Below, piece by piece: positions 2,054-29,100 of a DNA stretch of 64,000 bases. Source of the stretch: Xanthomonas sontii. Its GTDB lineage: Bacteria; Pseudomonadota; Gammaproteobacteria; Xanthomonadales; Xanthomonadaceae. Both the position numbers and the translations under genes were made by a program. A model generated the notes under the pieces. It was not told where the DNA came from and made no database searches. It saw nothing but the letters and a program-made list of their open reading frames with translations. The stretch's first letter is position 1; each line of letters starts with the position of its first letter. Location: contig NZ_CP132342.1 of the NCBI RefSeq assembly GCF_040529055.1, positions 1,233,501-1,297,500 of the forward strand, in the 5' to 3' direction.

Positions 2054-2920
2054 TCAGCGCGGGGTGGCGCGGAGCAACTGCCGGAAGGCGTCGTCCAGCG
2101 CGCGCTGGTCGCCGCTGCCAGCGGGCAGTTGCGGGGCACCTGCTTCCATCCTGCCCAGCTCCGCGTCCAGGAAATCGCTGATCGCCGGAATCCGCGGGCC
2201 GTCTTCGACCTCGGCCGATGCGCGTTTCTTGTCCAGCAAGGCATCGATCGCCTCGCGCAGGGCGCCAGAGGGAACCAGGGCGTCCAGCAGCGACGCGAAG
2301 GCCATCGGCGGCATGCCGTGCCCACGCTCGATCCATTGGCAGGCCAGCACGGGGCGCAACACGTACAGGTACTTCTTGGTGCGGATGCGCTCGCCGCGCA
2401 GATAGCCGCGGTAATTGCCCTTGGCCATGCTGAAGTAATGCCACCAGGTCGCCACCGGCGAATAGAAGCGCTCGGCCATCTCCCGCAGCGTCGCCACGGC
2501 CGCGGCGTCCTGCCGGTACACCACCGGCGACTGCAGCCACTCCAGCAAGGTCGGGTTGGATTTGGACACCAGGCGCAAGGCCTTGCGCAGATCCCAGCCG
2601 CTGACGTCCAGGTCGCTGTCGATCGGCAACTCGATCACGTCGCGCTGCGGTTCGCCCGGCCCGGTCCGTTCGTTGACGGTGAGGTACCAGTCCGGCCGAT
2701 GCACATAGACGAAGCGCGCGTCGTAGTCGCTGTCGGGCGAGGAAAAGCCCCAGCCGCGGCTACCAGATTCGCAGGCTAGCAGGATGCGGACGTCGTGGCG
2801 CTGTTCGATGTCCTGCAGCGCGGCGAGCACGGCAGCGCGCTTGTCGGCGGCGATCGGGTGGATCGCCATGTCGGGCGAGGCGGAGGGCGCGGTCGCTGCA
2901 GCGTCGTTCGAAGGCGTCAT
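2054..2920 (-). CDS. RlaP-type nucleotidyltransferase domain protein
   Basis: A 288-residue protein of the DNA polymerase beta superfamily. The N-terminal half carries SGSRGWGFSSPDSDYDARFVY, in which the GS helix-turn and the paired Asp residues (SDYDAR) form the metal-binding signature of minimal nucleotidyltransferases. The layout matches the family proposed to act in RNA repair (RlaP, Pfam PF10127). The start at 2920 shares one base with the mnmG stop (TGATG), indicating translational coupling to a tRNA-modification enzyme. An internal ATG at 2869 (MAIHP) is a possible alternative start. What it nucleotidylates is unknown; a tRNA-related role is only suggested by the coupling. Confidence 0.8.
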   Translation of the reverse strand: MTPSNDAAATAPSASPDMAIHPIAADKRAAVLAALQDIEQRHDVRILLACESGSRGWGFSSPDSDYDARFVYVHRPDWYLTVNERTGPGEPQRDVIELPIDSDLDVSGWDLRKALRLVSKSNPTLLEWLQSPVVYRQDAAAVATLREMAERFYSPVATWWHYFSMAKGNYRGYLRGERIRTKKYLYVLRPVLACQWIERGHGMPPMAFASLLDALVPSGALREAIDALLDKKRASAEVEDGPRIPAISDFLDAELGRMEAGAPQLPAGSGDQRALDDAFRQLLRATPR

Positions 2921-4809
2921 CACGCCACCCGGCTGCGCCGCGCGCGTTCCAGGTGCACCAGTAGCAGCGAGATCGCCGCCGGGGTCATGCCGGGGATGCG
3001 CTGCGCCTGGCCCACGGTCTGCGGGCGCACGCGCTCGAGCTTCTGCTGCACTTCGGCCGACAGGCCGCGCACCTGCGCGTAGTCGAAGGCGGGCGGGATC
3101 GGGGTGTCCTCGTGGCGCTGCTGGCGGGCGATCTCGTCGCGCTGGCGGTCCAGGTAGCCGGCGTACTTGATGCCGATCTCCACCTGCTCCGCCACCTGCG
3201 CGTCGGCCACGCCCGGGCCCAGCGACGGCACCCGCATCAGCGCGGCGTAGTCCAGTTCCGGGCGCTTGATCAGGTCCAGCACGGTGGTCTCGCGGCTCAC
3301 CGCCACGCCGAGCGTCGCCGCGACCTCGCGGCCCAGCGCGTTGCCCGGCGTGGCCCACAGCGCACGCAGGCGCTCGTTCTCGCGCGCCACCGCCTCCTGC
3401 TTGGCCTGAAAGCGCGCCCAGCGCGTTTCGTCGACGATGCCCAGGTCGTGGCCGATGCCGGTCAGGCGCGCGTCGGCGTTGTCCTCGCGCAGCTGCAGCC
3501 GGTACTCGGCGCGGCTGGTGAACATGCGGTACGGCTCGCTGGTGCCGTGGGTGATCAGGTCGTCGATCAGCACGCCGATGTAGGCCTGGTCGCGGCGCGG
3601 CGACCATGGTTCCAGCCCGCGCACCTGGCGCGCAGCGTTGAGGCCGGCGATCAGGCCCTGCGCGGCGGCTTCCTCGTAGCCGGTGGTGCCGTTGATCTGG
3701 CCTGCGAAGAACAGCCCGGGCATGGCCTTGGTCTCCAGCGAGGCCTTGAGCCCGCGCGGATCGAAGAAGTCGTACTCGATGGCGTAGCCGGGGCGGGTGA
3801 TGTGCGCGCGCTCGAAGCCGCGGATCGAGCGCACCAGCTCCAGCTGCACGTCGAACGGCAGCGAGGTGGAGATGCCGTTGGGGTAGATCTCGACCACGTC
3901 CAGGCCTTCCGGCTCGACGAAGATCTGATGGCTGGCCTTGTCGGCGAAGCGCACCACCTTGTCCTCGATCGAGGGGCAGTAGCGCGGGCCGATGCCCTCG
4001 ATCTGGCCGGTGTACAGCGGCGAGCGGTCCAGCGCGCCGCGGATGATGGCGTGGGTGCGCTCGGTGGTGTGGGTGATCCAGCACGACACCTGGCGCGGAT
4101 GCTGCGCCACCTCGCCCAGGAACGACATCACCGGCAGCGGATCGTCGCCGGGCTGTTCCTCCATCGCCGCGTAGTCCAGGCTGCGCCCGTCGATGCGCGG
4201 CGGGGTGCCGGTCTTGAGCCGGTCCACGCCGAAGCGGCCGTCGCGCAGCGCCTGCGCCAGCGCGGTGGCCGGCGGATCGCCGGCGCGGCCGCCGGCGTAC
4301 TGGGTCTGGCCGATGTGGATCTTGCCGGCCAGGAAGGTGCCGGCGGTCAGCACCACCGCCGCGGCCTCGAAGCGCAGCCCGGTCTGGGTCAGCACGCCGC
4401 GCACGCGCTCGCCGTCCATCACCAGGTCGTCCACCGCGGCCTGGAACACGGTCAGGTTCGGCTGCGCCTCGACCAGGCGCCGGATCGCGCTGCGGTACAG
4501 GCTGCGGTCGGCCTGGCAGCGGGTCGCGCGCACCGCCGGGCCCTTGGAGGCATTGAGGGTCCGCCACTGGATGCCGGCCAGATCCGCGGCGTGGGCCATC
4601 GCCCCGCCCAGCGCGTCGATCTCCTTGACCAGGTGGCCCTTGCCGATGCCACCGATCGCCGGGTTGCAGCTCATCGCCCCCACCGTCTCCACGTTATGGG
4701 TCAGCAGCAGGGTGCGCGCGCCGGCACGCGCGGACGCCAGCGCCGCCTCGGTGCCGGCATGGCCGCCGCCGATCACGATCACGTCATGGCGGTAGAAGGA
4801 ATCGCTCAT
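2920..4809 (-). CDS. mnmG: tRNA uridine-5-carboxymethylaminomethyl modification enzyme MnmG (GidA)
   Basis: The FAD-dependent subunit that, with MnmE, installs the carboxymethylaminomethyl group on wobble U34 of several tRNAs. The dinucleotide-binding loop [14 protein letters not shown] is at the N-terminus, followed by the family-specific [20 protein letters not shown] region. The C-terminal helical MnmE-binding domain is complete. At 629 residues from ATG 4809 the length matches the family norm. The frame is open 15 codons further upstream, but those residues are Pro/Ala-rich and unlike the family. A -10-like TAAAAT lies on the minus strand at 4887-4882. The next gene overlaps its stop by one base. 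Confidence 0.97.
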
Positions 4810-4887: not shown

Positions 4888-4923
4888 GCGGTTGCATCAC
4901 AAATTGCGGATCCGGGCCTCAAG

Positions 4924-4940
4924 TTGGCACGCAATCTGCA
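4924..4940 (+). promoter_or_regulatory. Sigma-54 (RpoN) -24/-12 promoter candidate
   Basis: TTGGCACGCAATCTGCA fits the consensus TTGGCACG-N4-TTGCA with one mismatch. The invariant GG (4926-4927) and GC (4938-4939) are separated by exactly ten bases. The predicted start of transcription is near 4951. No CDS follows on this strand for about 1 kb; a terminator follows about 85-115 bases later. Confidence 0.65.
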
Positions 4941-4950
4941 GATATTCCCA

Positions 4951-5066
4951 CTGCACCCAACGTGGCAATGCGTCAGGGGCGTATGACTGGAATTGGAACA
5001 GGGGCCAGTCACGCGCACGTTGGGGGAGCTGGGGGCCGGTAGTCGGGGGACTACCGGCCCTTTTTT
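4951..5066 (+). ncRNA. Candidate sigma-54-dependent small RNA (~116 nt)
   Basis: This gene-free stretch is bounded by a near-consensus -24/-12 promoter and a strong intrinsic terminator. Between them are nested complementary arms. CCCAACGTG (4956-4964) pairs with CACGTTGGG (5016-5024). Inside that, TGACTGG (4984-4990) pairs with CCAGTCA (5005-5011) around a 14-base loop containing TTGGAACAGGGG. The third stem is the terminator. The G-rich loops and exposed GGA could bind C-rich mRNA leaders or an RsmA/CsrA protein, but that is inference. Orientation rests on the T-tract and promoter. No known RNA family was recognised. Confidence 0.55.
5033..5066 (+). terminator. Strong rho-independent terminator
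   Basis: Left arm GGGCCGGTAGTC (5033-5044), loop GGGG and right arm GACTACCGGCCC (5049-5060) form a perfect 12-bp stem followed by six T (5061-5066). It terminates plus-strand transcription, where no CDS precedes it, supporting a small RNA gene. Confidence 0.9.
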
Positions 5067-5122
5067 ATGCCCGTTTTTCGCCGGTCGCCGGCGCCACCCC
5101 AGCAATGGCAAGGCCCCAACGC

Positions 5123-5150
5123 GAAAAGCCCCGGCGAACCGGGGCTTTTC
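5123..5150. terminator. Second hairpin, probably a bidirectional terminator
   Basis: GAAAAGCCCCGG (5123-5134), loop CGAA, CCGGGGCTTTTC (5139-5150): a perfect 12-bp stem with a stable tetraloop and an internal A/T run on both strands. It probably ends transcription from the minus-strand lipoprotein gene at 5319 and backs up the terminator at 5066. Confidence 0.75.
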
Positions 5151-5318
5151 GTTGTGAGGCGCCGACGCCCGACAGGGCCGGAACAGGGGGGATCCAGATT
5201 TCCCTGTCGGACATCGACATAGACGGTGGGGTCGACCCCTTCGGGTCATAAAGCGACGCAGGCGGTCACCCCGTAGGACGTAGAGTGCGTGCTGGAACAG
5301 GCGAACGCAAGCCCTTTC

Positions 5319-5843
5319 TTAGGGTTCGAGTGTGCGACGTGTCCCATTGCTGCGACCCATATTGCCGGGGCGCGGCGCCGGCGGGCGCTGCATGCCCTCG
5401 GGACGCTGCATCGCCGGCCGGGCCGGCTGCATCGATTGCGGCCGCGGTGCCGAATTGAGCGCGTCCGGACGGCGCAGGCGGTCCATGTCGCGCCACGGCG
5501 TCGGTACCCGACCACCCACGCTGGGCGGCGGCGGCGGCGGCGGCCGCGAGCCGCCGTCGTCCGGCCGCGGACGCGGTGGCGGGCGGTGGCGCGGGCCATC
5601 GTAGCCACGGTAGTAGTAATACGGCACGCCGTACCCGTAGTAGCCGTAATAGGACGGGCCGTAGCCGTAGTAGGGCACCGCGCCGTAGGGCGAGTAGTAC
5701 TCGGAGTAGCCGGCCGGGTAGCGGTATTCGACCGACGGGGCGCCACGGTAGTAGCCACCCTCGCCGCCTCCGGCGTAATCGTAGGTGGCACAGCCGCCCA
5801 GTGCGGCCAGCAGTCCAGCGGCGCAGATCAGGCGCAGTTTCAT
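5319..5843 (-). CDS. Small Tyr/Gly/Pro-rich lipoprotein, function unknown
   Basis: A 174-residue predicted lipoprotein. The N-terminus MKLRLICAAGLLAALGGCATYDY is a signal peptide with lipobox LGGC. The next ~70 residues are rich in Tyr and Gly (repeated YYGYG-like units), followed by a Pro/Arg-rich section with a run of seven prolines and an Arg/Met/Pro tail. The frame is open upstream, but ATG 5843 has GGAG ten bases before it and begins the signal sequence. The composition suggests an extended envelope-associated protein; no enzyme motif is visible. It is a single gene whose transcript likely ends at the hairpin near 5123-5150. Confidence 0.75.
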   Translation of the reverse strand: MKLRLICAAGLLAALGGCATYDYAGGGEGGYYRGAPSVEYRYPAGYSEYYSPYGAVPYYGYGPSYYGYYGYGVPYYYYRGYDGPRHRPPPRPRPDDGGSRPPPPPPPSVGGRVPTPWRDMDRLRRPDALNSAPRPQSMQPARPAMQRPEGMQRPPAPRPGNMGRSNGTRRTLEP

Positions 5844-6007
5844 GGCGTTTGCCCTCCAGCAGGCTGGCTGACAGGTTCGGTCCGTGGCATTGAATCCCCC
5901 CTTAACTCCATCGGCTGCACTTGAACGCTTAAGTTGCGCGCAACGACGGCGAACCGGCGCGAGTCGCGGGCGCTGCACGTTGGCGACGATACGCTACCCT
6001 TTCGCGC

Positions 6008-20404: not shown

Positions 20405-21070
20405 ATGGCATTGATCGGTCTGCTCGAAGACGAAGTGGATCTGTGCGAGGAACTGCAGAGTTATCTGGTCGGCGCCGGACACCGCGTGGTATCCGCTGGC
20501 TCGGCTGCGGCCTTCTTCGCCGCAAGTGCCGGGCTGCGCTTCGACGTGGTGATCCTCGATCGCGGGCTCCCCGATGCCGATGGCCTGGAGATCGTGGAGC
20601 GCCTGCGCAGCGCCTCCCCGGGCATCGGCATCATCATGTTGACCGCGCGCGGTGCCAGCGAGGACCGCATCCACGGCCTGGAGAACGGGGCCGACCACTA
20701 CCTGGTCAAGCCGGTGCGCCTGGCGGAACTGGCGGCGCACGTGCGTGCACTGTTGCGACGGCTGCCGCGCGGCTGGCGTCTGGTCGCCAGCGAATGCTGC
20801 CTGTACACGCCGGAGGATGCGCGTCTGGAACTGAGCGCGCGCGAGTTCGCGCTGTTGCGGGTGCTGGCCGTGCGCGCCGGCGAGATGGCCGGCCGCCGCG
20901 AGGTGGCCGAGGCGCTGGGCTGGGACTGGATGTCCTTCGACCAGCGTCGCCTGGATACCATGATCAGCCGTTTGCGTCGGCGCTGCCGCGAGGCGTGCGG
21001 GCAGGAACTGCCAATCCGCACTGAGCACGCGCGCGGCTATCTGACCACCGATTCCATCCGCGTGGAGTAA
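20405..21070 (+). CDS. OmpR/PhoB-type response regulator
   Basis: A 221-residue regulator. The receiver domain (1-115) has the acidic pocket LLEDE, phospho-acceptor Asp52 in VVILDRGLPDADG, Thr80 and Lys102 (YLVKPV). The C-terminal winged helix (about 130-218) ends with LDTMISRLRRR and the wing IRTEHARGYLTT. ATG 20405 follows GGGGAGG; an in-frame ATG at 20363 is possible but weaker. It lies just after the kinase and 307 bases before the two-partner secretion genes, which are its most likely targets. Confidence 0.93.
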   Translation: MALIGLLEDEVDLCEELQSYLVGAGHRVVSAGSAAAFFAASAGLRFDVVILDRGLPDADGLEIVERLRSASPGIGIIMLTARGASEDRIHGLENGADHYLVKPVRLAELAAHVRALLRRLPRGWRLVASECCLYTPEDARLELSAREFALLRVLAVRAGEMAGRREVAEALGWDWMSFDQRRLDTMISRLRRRCREACGQELPIRTEHARGYLTTDSIRVE

Positions 21071-26100: not shown

Positions 26101-29100
26101 GCCGCCACTGCCGGCACCGGTTTCGATGCGGCCAGCACCACGCTGAGCAATCAGACGGCAGCCACCGTGGCCTTCGCCCTGTCCGGCGGCAACCCGTTCG
26201 CGTTCGGCGGCAGCAGCACGGTCCTGAGCGGCAGCATGCTGTCGCGCTTCAACGGCGTGAGCACGTTGCGTGTGGATGCGGCGGGCAATGACGTGACGAT
26301 GGGGGCGTTCAACGTCGCCGTTGGCAACCGCATGCAGGTACAGGCGCGTCGTTTGCAGCAGACCGGCGATGTCGGCGTGAGCGGCGGCAGCCTCTATCTC
26401 AGCGCCGCGCAGGGCGGCCTGAGCCTGAACCACGGCATCAGCGCCGCGCAGACGCTGTCGCTCAACGACGTGGCCGGTACCGGCATCCAGGGCAGCGGCG
26501 CGTTGACCGCCGCGGCACTGGCGCTGCGCTCCAGCGGCGCGGTGTCGCTGACCTCCGCCAGTACCCTGGTGAACGCGATCGCGGCGCAGAGCGGCGACCT
26601 GACTTTCCGCAACAACGGCAACCTGCTGGTCGGCAGTGTCGATGGCCTCGCCGGCATCGCCTCCACCGGCGCGGTGGACGTGCGCCTGACCGGCGCCAGC
26701 GCGGACCTGACGCTGCAACAGGCGGTGAGCGCGGGCAATGCCGCGCAGCGACAGACCGGCGTGCTGCTGGCGGCCGGCCGCAACTTCATCAATCAGGCAG
26801 GCAACAGTGCCGTAAGCACCGGCAACGGCCGCTGGCTGGTGTATTCCACCTCGCCGCTCAATGACACCCGCGGCGGTCTGGCGCCGCAGTTCAAGCAGTA
26901 CAACGCCGGCACCGGCAGCACCGTGCTGGATGCGGGCAGCGGTTTCCTTTACCGCGTCGCCCCGACCGTTGCCGTCGCCCTGACCGGCGCAGCCAGCAAG
27001 ACCTATGACGGCAATGCCGCTGCCGCACTGGGCGGGATCGGCTACACGGCCAGCAGCGGTGCGATCGACGGCGATACGGTCGTCGTCACCGGCACCGCTG
27101 CGCACTACGACAGCAAGAACGTCGGCCACGGCAAGGCGGTCACCGTCGACGGTCTGAGCGTGGACCACGCCGGCAACGGCGCGGTGCGCGTGTACGGCTA
27201 CGGTCTGGCCAGCACCAGCGCCAGTGCCAACATCGGTACGATCAGCCAGAAGACGCTGCAGCTGGGGGCCGGCTCGATCCAGGGCAAGGTCTACGACGGC
27301 ACCACCACCGCCAGCCTGGGGTCGGCGGCCCTGAGCGGCGTGGTGAGCGGCGACGACGTGCGCTTCGCCGGAGCATCCGGCGCGGTGTTCGCCGACAAGC
27401 GCGCCGGCGTCAACAAGCAGGTCACCGTGTCCGGCATCGCGCTCGGCGGCAGCGATGCCGGCAACTACCTGGTCGACAGCACGGCCTATGCCGACATCGC
27501 CAAGCGCACGCTGACGGTGGCGGTCGACATCGCCGGCAAGGTGTACGACGGCGGGATCGGCGCGCAGGTGCGCAACGCCACGCTCGGCAATGCCGTCGTC
27601 GGCGACGATGTGTCCGTCGCCACCCAGGCCGCGTTCGTCGACAAGAACGTCGGCGACAACAAGAGCGTCGTGGTCGCCGCACAACTCGGCGGCACCGATG
27701 CCGACAACTACGTCATGGACGTGGCCACCTCGACGCCGCGCGGCAGTACCGCCTCGATCACGCCCAAGACGATCGACGCCGGCACGCTGAGCGTGACCGC
27801 CAAGGTGTACGACGGCAACCGTACCGCCAACGTCGGCAGCAACGGCCCGGTCGGCACGCTGAGCGGGGACGACGTGGCGCTGGTCCTGCAAGGCCAGTAC
27901 GACGACAGGAACGCAGGCACGGGCAAGCGGGTGGACGTGACGGCGGGCTTGCGCGGTGGCGACGCCGGCAACTACCAGTTGCTCGCGACGCGCCTGCAGT
28001 CCAGCGGCGACATCACGCCCAAGACGATCGACGCCGGCACGCTGAGCGTGACGGCCAAGGTGTACGACGGCAACCGCACCGCCAATGTCGGCAGCAGCGG
28101 CATGGTCGGCACGGTCGGTGGGGATGACGTCGCGTTGATCTTGCAGGGCCTTTACGACACCAAGAACGCCGGCACCGGCAAGCGCGTGGACGTGACCGCG
28201 GGCCTGCGCGGTGGCGATGCCGGCAACTATCGCCTGGTCAACACCAGCCTGCAGTCGCGCGGCGACGTGGCGGCGAAGGAACTGACCGTCGGCAATGTGG
28301 CCGTGCTGGACAAGCGCTTCGACGGCGGCAGCGACGCGGTGCTGGTACTGCCGCCGCTGCGTGGCGTGGTCGCTGGCGACGAGGTCGCGCTGCAGGGTCG
28401 GGGTCAGTACGACAATGCCTCGGCCGCGGCGGGCAAGACGGTGCAGATCGCACTGGCTCTGAGCGGTGCCGACGCGGGCAACTACCGCCTCACCGACGCG
28501 CGTCAGCAGACCGTCGCCGGCATCGAGGACCTGCCGGGCCGCAACGCGGTGGACGCGGTTTCGCAGCCGAGCATGGGGGGCAACGGCACGCAGCCGGGCG
28601 GCACCGCCGACGGCAATTCGTTGACGGCGGCGGGCGCGATTTCGGCAGCGGCCGGCGCGATGGGGGAACTGGGCGCATCGGCGCAACCGCGGCTGGGTGG
28701 AACCTCGCTCGATCCGACCGGCGCCGGCAGCACGGCATCGGGCGGCGCCGCCGGTGGCAGCGGCCTTGGCGGTAGCGCCGGTGGTTCGGGCAGTGCCGGC
28801 GGCACTGCCGGCGCTGCGATCGGCACGGGCACCGGGACCACCGCGGCCGACGGTGCCACCGGCTCGGCGGGCGCCAATGCCGGTGGCAACGGCGCAGGCA
28901 ACGTCGCCGATGCCCAGGGCGGTGCTGGCGCCGCAAGCCAGGGTGCCGGCCAGCGCGGCGGTGCCCCGGGCGATGTGGCGATGGAGCAGGTGCTGCGCAA
29001 CGGTGCCGGCGTGAGCCTCGCTACCGGTGGCGAGACCCTGGCGCAGCCTGAAGTGGCGGTGCTGACGGTGTTCGACGGCGAAGGCCGTGCGCTGGGCCGC

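Follow-up and report, generated by a model that had tools for sequence, protein, structure and literature searches.

Identity of the small RNA divergent from mnmG

Which RNA is encoded divergently from mnmG at this locus of Xanthomonas sontii, and on what might it act? The window (the whole 64,000-nt stretch of DNA analysed, whose numbering is used in Table 1) had been predicted to carry here a stand-alone structured small RNA of no recognised family behind a sigma-54-type promoter. An Rfam 15 search of the 64-kb window gave two matches at cut-off, one a tRNA and the other asX1 (RF02235), which extends over 4954–5067 of the plus strand and over model positions 1–115 (full length) with 117.8 bits against a gathering cut-off of 70. 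The candidate is therefore a member of the known sRNA family asX1, and is already catalogued. The original prediction was wrong in recognising no known family; the stand-alone structured sRNA has gained an Rfam identity, and the sigma-54-type promoter divergent from mnmG has gained the conservation described below. The −24/−12 element, nested stems and terminator are all present in the sequence as had been described, and the predicted 5′ end (4950–4952) lies within a few bases of the Rfam start at 4954. The C-rich RNA sX13 (RF02232), which had been flagged for exclusion, is rejected as the identity of 4951–5067, its only match in the genome being at 554276–554390.

Table 1. Known and predicted features of the asX1 locus (window coordinates)
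Feature	Position	Strand	Basis
mnmG (gidA)	2920..4809	−	ORF with MnmG N-terminus; putative name, resting on sequence
Sigma-54-type promoter of asX1, TTGGCACGCAATCTGC	4924..4939	+	−24 GG 4926–4927, −12 GC 4938–4939 (GG-N10-GC)
asX1 sRNA	4951..5067	+	Rfam match 4954–5067; probable start 4951–4954
asX1 apical loop motif GGAACAGGGG	4995..5004	+	Complement of partner loop
asX1 intrinsic terminator	5031..5062	+	Terminator scan: 14-pair terminator-like hairpin and T tract
Predicted convergent partner RNA, ~158 nt	5118..5275	−	Both ends predicted
Candidate partner-ending hairpin	5123..5150	−	Near-perfect palindrome, T4 on either strand; read from sequence
Conserved partner hairpin with covarying stem	5157..5223	−	Model R1, 75.7 bits, E 1.5e-13; sequence in training alignment
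Invariant C-rich loop region GGATCCCCCCTGTTCC	5180..5195	−	14 invariant columns
Conserved TGACCGCCTGCGTC / TGACnGnnnGCGTC, near-palindromic, at predicted partner start	5255..5268	−	Consensus TGAC.g...gCGTC in 49 loci
Predicted partner −10, CACTCT	5282..5287	−	17-nt spacer from −35
Predicted partner −35, TTGCGT	5305..5310	−	Promoter pattern

The segment 4951–5068 folds at −63.9 kcal/mol (z = −6.4), a stability equalled by none of 200 shuffled sequences. Expression of asX1 is reported, in the accessible text of the respective papers, for X. campestris pv. raphani (PMC4652430) and for Xylella fastidiosa cells (PMC12189769). A 119-codon frame exists mechanically at 4892–5251 of the plus strand, and no support for its status as a gene was found. 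The loop motif TGGAACAGGGG occurs eight times in the genome, against none for the reversed control; the other copies were set aside as further sRNAs, being judged mostly coding and without sRNA features.

A 200-genome sample of the order yielded asX1 in 35 genomes, every one from the 36 Xanthomonadaceae sampled, and a wider survey of this family recovered it in 352 of 395 genomes, as a rule with one match per genome. We examined 60 asX1 loci, which cover 60 of the 352 genomes with a match and are made up of 30 of the 35 matches of the order sample and 30 of 31 matches from 30 genomes picked for diversity; half of the set was thus chosen for diversity, with scores down to 39 bits, and the loci are related to one another, so that counts over them are not independent. 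Divergent mnmG adjoins asX1 in 60/60, and ACAGGG is present in the apical region of all 60 RNAs. A wobble test, which gave 62 G.U against 11 A.C, agrees with the known strand of asX1.

A conserved sigma-54-type promoter

A GG-N10-GC element lies upstream of asX1 in every one of the 60 loci. The distance from the start of its GG to the Rfam start is 27 nt in 29 loci, 28 nt in another 29 and 29 nt in 2, and 59 of the 60 carry the fuller form TGGCA-N7-TGC. Taken alone the match is weak: with at most one mismatch the promoter motif occurs three times in the 64-kb window, where shuffled sequences average 4.48, and thus shows no excess. The exact form TTGGCAYGN5TGC is found 16 times in the 5.0-Mb genome and twice for its reversed control. 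It is the fixed distance in 60/60 loci that takes the match beyond chance, and on this conservation the sigma-54 reading of the promoter is well supported. A tie to nitrogen, motility or surface functions, as suggested in the original prediction, is conjectural.

Matches to the rpoN family were found in 390 of the 395 Xanthomonadaceae genomes, with two in X. sontii, so a comparison of rpoN loss with asX1 loss is uninformative. One genome (G226) is missing rpoN, asX1 and the partner pattern described below. A search for an activator site in 24 non-redundant loci gave no conserved upstream dyad apart from matches inside the coding part of mnmG, and the words enriched at −300 to −34 in these loci overlap the mnmG coding sequence. 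It is very improbable that the sigma-54 match is incidental and that asX1 is driven by another promoter: the one-mismatch motif is at chance frequency in the window, the activator search came up empty and two genomes (G261 and G443, both only 86% complete) have an asX1 match and no rpoN match, but all 60 loci carry the site at its fixed distance.

Two loci (L002 and L003) have TGTGA-N6-TCACA, which we take to be a CRP/Clp-like motif, between mnmG and the asX1 promoter, ~40–60 nt before the asX1 start.

The published search for sigma-54 promoters in Xylella was, by the accessible part of its description, confined to intergenic regions and to the coding strand of annotated genes (PMC3224663), and could for this reason miss an sRNA. 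The terms sRNA, ncRNA and small RNA do not occur in two RpoN transcriptome papers (PMC7970052 and PMC7280030).

A predicted convergent hairpin RNA downstream of asX1

The activator-site search revealed that a word around GGAACAGGGGGGATCC is enriched downstream of asX1, in 21 of the 24 non-redundant loci (the script scored each locus twice). Fifty-nine of the 60 loci have this word, 136–354 nt after the asX1 start, and there it forms part of a long hairpin's loop; L058 is without the pattern, and partner counts accordingly refer to n = 59. This putative convergent partner RNA lies outside the coordinates of the original prediction, which missed it.

The predicted 158-nt partner folds at −85.9 kcal/mol (z = −6.1; 0 of 200 shuffles equally stable), and no Rfam family reaches its cut-off on it. 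An alignment of 72 sequences from five families, chosen from 108 loci, has 14 invariant columns, all of them in the loop region, and compensatory changes on both sides in 12 of 17 stem pairs. Double changes that keep a pair fill 134 cells, compared with 41.6 in shuffles, none of 500 of which reach 134, and with 35 for the best slid control. Counted per family, further pair types in f12, f3 and f5 are not above shuffles because the stem varies little there. Elsewhere in the window the covariance model R1 has weak, probably chance matches at 20571–20633 (plus strand, E 0.041) and 28164–28229 (minus strand, E 0.11).

Since the stem can form on both strands, wobble pairs were used to call the strand. 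Over the pairs common to both strand predictions, A.C on the plus strand (equivalent to G.U on the minus strand) totals 44 and G.U on the plus strand 6; by family the two counts are 32 and 2 in Xanthomonadaceae (f1), 8 and 1 in f12, f3 and f5 together and 4 and 3 in f11. Folds of single sequences are more stable on the minus strand in 48/59 Xanthomonadaceae loci. A promoter pattern, TTGN3-N16-18-[CT]ANNNT, occurs on the minus strand in 48/59 Xanthomonadaceae loci; the plus strand has it in 5, and shuffles lead one to expect 2.6, counts that belong to a pattern picked after the consensus had been seen. In L045, moreover, the hairpin begins within a few bases of the asX1 T tract, which leaves no room for a plus-strand promoter. 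These observations all weigh against a hairpin RNA on the plus strand, whose G-rich loop would resemble that of asX1, with both RNAs binding a common factor or a C-rich RNA. Such an arrangement would be in keeping with the single folds of 7 of 9 sister-family loci, more stable on the plus strand, and with consensus folds of f12, f3 and f5 that are equal between the strands (−33.79 plus, −33.93 minus), and we regard it as unlikely. The partner RNA is very probably on the minus strand in Xanthomonadaceae, and probably so in the sister families too.

The ends of the partner are less sharply drawn. A generic promoter score gives little or no excess (in f12, 8.03 against 8.13 for shuffles), and a strict scan of the window lists no sigma-70 promoter and no terminator for it; the hairpin at 5123–5150 is likewise absent from the stricter terminator scan, which asks for at least five T. 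The conserved element at the predicted start (5255–5268) could be an operator or a 5′ leader structure.

Beyond the partner lies a lipoprotein-like ORF, MKLRLICAAGLLAALGGCATYDYAGGG..., rich in Gly, Tyr and Pro (5319–5850, minus strand). Many of the inspected Xanthomonadaceae loci have similar ORFs, and the sister families have other neighbours. That the partner is a mere part of the lipoprotein mRNA is less likely given its own promoter pattern and these different neighbours.

The partner pattern was found in 355 of the 395 Xanthomonadaceae genomes. Tallied by hand, 342 genomes have both it and asX1, 10 have asX1 only, 13 have the partner pattern only and 30 have neither. A Fisher value from this table is no evidence of function, because assembly gaps can remove both neighbours and the pattern may match elsewhere than at the locus, as does the match listed for G244. 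Five of the asX1-only genomes were inspected, of which four have a one-base variant of the partner pattern and one has a contig end; four of the partner-only genomes were inspected, and all show an asX1-like sequence. In small genomes (1.5–2.2 Mb) of the genus g7 (G388, G432, G462, G496, G502 and G508), asX1 and the partner pattern were both looked for and not found.

Complementarity of the exposed loops

Between the apical loop of asX1 and the loop of the partner, the longest run of complementary bases measures 10 nt in 40 of the 59 Xanthomonadaceae loci and 9 nt in the other 19, where mononucleotide shuffling gives a mean of 5.65 nt and 62 of 1180 shuffled controls reach 8 nt. The run lies in segments predicted to be exposed, with unpaired probabilities of 0.74 for asX1 and 0.91 for the partner loop. 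Complementarity of exposed segments is conserved in 59/59 loci of this family and in 6/6 of f11, in which the run is 7–12 nt long (shuffled 4.70) and reaches 11 or 12 nt in four of the six. It is only 6–7 nt in f12 and f3, where shuffles give 5.39 and 5.54.

The arrangement in sister families

A search of the 200-genome order sample with the pattern GGAACAGGGGGNNTCC gave matches in 85 genomes, distributed as 36/36 in Xanthomonadaceae, 33/33 in f12, 8/9 in f11, 7/10 in f3 (one of the seven, L092, being a coding match) and 1/1 in f5, with none in the other families of the sample. Among the 80 matches listed for the partner pattern, out of at least 119, the genera that predominate are Dyella, Luteibacter, Rhodanobacter, Frateuria, Dokdonella and Tahibacter, alongside many unclassified proteobacterial MAGs; we take these genera to bring in Rhodanobacteraceae. 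In 340 genomes of the class, model R1 under strict filters matches four, all Xanthomonadaceae, and thus none beyond the order. A MAG labelled Candidatus Eremiobacteraeota (L188) carries a hairpin of the f12 type and may be mislabelled or a mixed bin.

In the 49 further loci with a partner hairpin, mnmG is again adjacent and divergent (49/49). A sigma-54-type TGG...TGC site (at least 9/11) lies 90–450 nt before the hairpin in 30/31 loci of f12, 6/6 of f11, 5/6 of f3, 0/1 of f5 and 4/5 additional loci of Xanthomonadaceae, as raw counts without a shuffle comparison. Every locus that has such a site also has, between it and the hairpin, an asX1-like sequence built around a CAGGG core. The Rfam asX1 model matches at none of the f12, f11 or f3 loci tested. 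In f11 the asX1-like RNA would be very short, consisting of a stretch of about CAGGGGGAATC, roughly the complementary part, and a terminator-like hairpin. The two-RNA arrangement thus recurs in the sister families, with weaker evidence there for strand and complementarity than in Xanthomonadaceae.

A model for asX1 function

The identity of asX1, the conservation of its promoter, the structure of the partner and the complementarity of the two loops were computed directly, and from them we infer a model in which the locus would encode two small RNAs facing each other, asX1 on the plus strand and its partner on the minus strand. Synthesis of asX1 from a sigma-54-type promoter should depend on RpoN together with an enhancer-binding protein. 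The partner would be made from a sigma-70-like promoter, and its invariant C-rich loop could pair with G-rich Shine–Dalgarno regions in the manner of sX13. In its apical loop asX1 has the complement of the partner loop, GAACAGGGG, in an exposed position; it would most likely pair with the C-rich loop when the sigma-54 signal is on and so free the mRNA targets of the partner. We put the probability that asX1, under sigma-54 control, is such an antagonist, or sponge, for a C-rich, anti-Shine–Dalgarno partner RNA at roughly 60%; the RpoN dependence of asX1, the existence of a partner transcript, intracellular pairing of the two RNAs, the direction of the effect and the targets are predictions of the model. 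The control may also run in reverse, from the partner to asX1.

Other functions can be proposed for the same features. A sigma-54-dependent asX1 might act on other targets, with the hairpin downstream unrelated to it and the likeness of the loops a relic of an inverted duplication. Each RNA is conserved in its own right, and the core match of just 6–7 nt in f12 and f3 would suit such an origin; the reading is nevertheless rather unlikely, given runs of 9–10 nt in all 59 Xanthomonadaceae loci and of up to 12 nt in f11, and the confinement of the 14 invariant columns to the loop region. Somewhat more credible, if still a minority prospect, is that asX1 chiefly titrates sX13, or C-rich sRNAs as a class, with the partner as one among several. 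Its longest match in an exposed segment (10 nt) is with the neighbour, which argues against this; complementary runs of 8, 7 and 6 nt do exist between sX13 and the asX1 of the window, but the 8-nt run, GGGGCCAG, is partly within a stem. The Bacillus subtilis sponge RosA, which by the accessible text binds two C-rich sRNAs (PMC8216469), provides a precedent for such breadth. Sequestration of RsmA/CsrA through GGA motifs in the loops, as by RsmY/RsmZ or by RsmU, described in the accessible text as an RsmA-binding sRNA of X. campestris (PMC7694677), is by comparison hardly probable. Several GGA motifs are present in the window copy, but no Rsm family matches at cut-off (rsmX 24.2 bits against 56, RsmY 23.5 against 57), and it is ACAGGGG or CAGGGG, not the GGAACA form, that the sister families keep.

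Returning to the sponge model, the promoter and the neighbouring complementary RNA would together give asX1 a regulator and a target, and its role would become open to direct test. If the model is true, the partner would be a new RNA family present in several families of this order, and RpoN control would be linked through the arrangement to the control of translation by C-rich sRNAs, known in Xanthomonas from sX13. A wider version, which we offer only tentatively, is that of an ancient two-RNA switch of Lysobacterales/Xanthomonadales in which a sigma-54-driven G-rich RNA, represented by asX1 and by relatives so far unrecognised, titrates the new family of C-rich hairpin RNAs with their invariant anti-Shine–Dalgarno loop, and possibly also sX13; by this route RpoN signals would act on the translation of many G-rich mRNAs.

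Comparison with known systems

The window RNA belongs to the same family as the Rfam asX1, with a full-length match over 115 model positions. Neither the Rfam entry nor the accessible text of the literature found on asX1, RF02235 or a gidA–mnmG sRNA in Xanthomonas, that is, publications other than the original paper (Schmidtke et al. 2012), mentions relatives in families other than Xanthomonadaceae, a partner RNA or a promoter of the sigma-54 type, and no stated regulator or target of asX1 was found in that literature.

The partner has its nearest likeness in sX13, a stable hairpin RNA whose C-rich loops, according to the accessible text, act on G-rich motifs near start codons (PMC3771888); it, too, is predicted to be a stable hairpin with a C-rich loop. 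Unlike sX13 (554276–554390), it lies at a different locus, has no sequence match to it, presents one invariant loop and has a neighbour carrying the complement of that loop.

For the pair as a whole, close parallels may be drawn, by analogy and as far as the accessible text of the sources goes, with RosA and its targets RoxS and FsrA (PMC8216469) and with CJnc180/CJnc190 of Campylobacter jejuni (PMC8687705). RosA is a G-rich sponge of C-rich sRNAs under a metabolic regulator (CcpA represses it), and its description is that of a stand-alone RNA; asX1 is likewise G-rich and a proposed titrator of a C-rich sRNA, but would be sigma-54 dependent and adjoins its partner. CJnc180 and CJnc190 are cis-antisense RNAs with extensive complementarity, whereas for asX1 and its partner the prediction is of two transcripts that do not overlap and that match in their loops only.

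Qrr and GlmY are sRNAs with sigma-54 promoters, and GlmY is, in addition, a decoy for another sRNA pathway. CrcZ belongs with them in that crcZ is a target of RpoN/CbrB (PMC8657755). The likeness drawn here between asX1 and these RNAs is that of a short regulatory RNA behind a −24/−12 promoter.

Possible targets

In the X. sontii genome the arrangement ACAGGGG-N3-10-ATG occurs 36 times, against 5 for the reversed control. Thirty of the 36 matches were inspected: several are plausible starts of genes whose products are secreted or belong to the envelope, and many others are not plausible. Ribosome-binding sites that are G-rich are, by the accessible text of the sX13 study, common in Xanthomonas (PMC3771888), and for this reason the excess indicates that the partner loop could act like sX13, not that it does. 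An exact complement of the partner loop lies directly before a start codon in two relatives, L136 and L144, and such copies are also found in L137.
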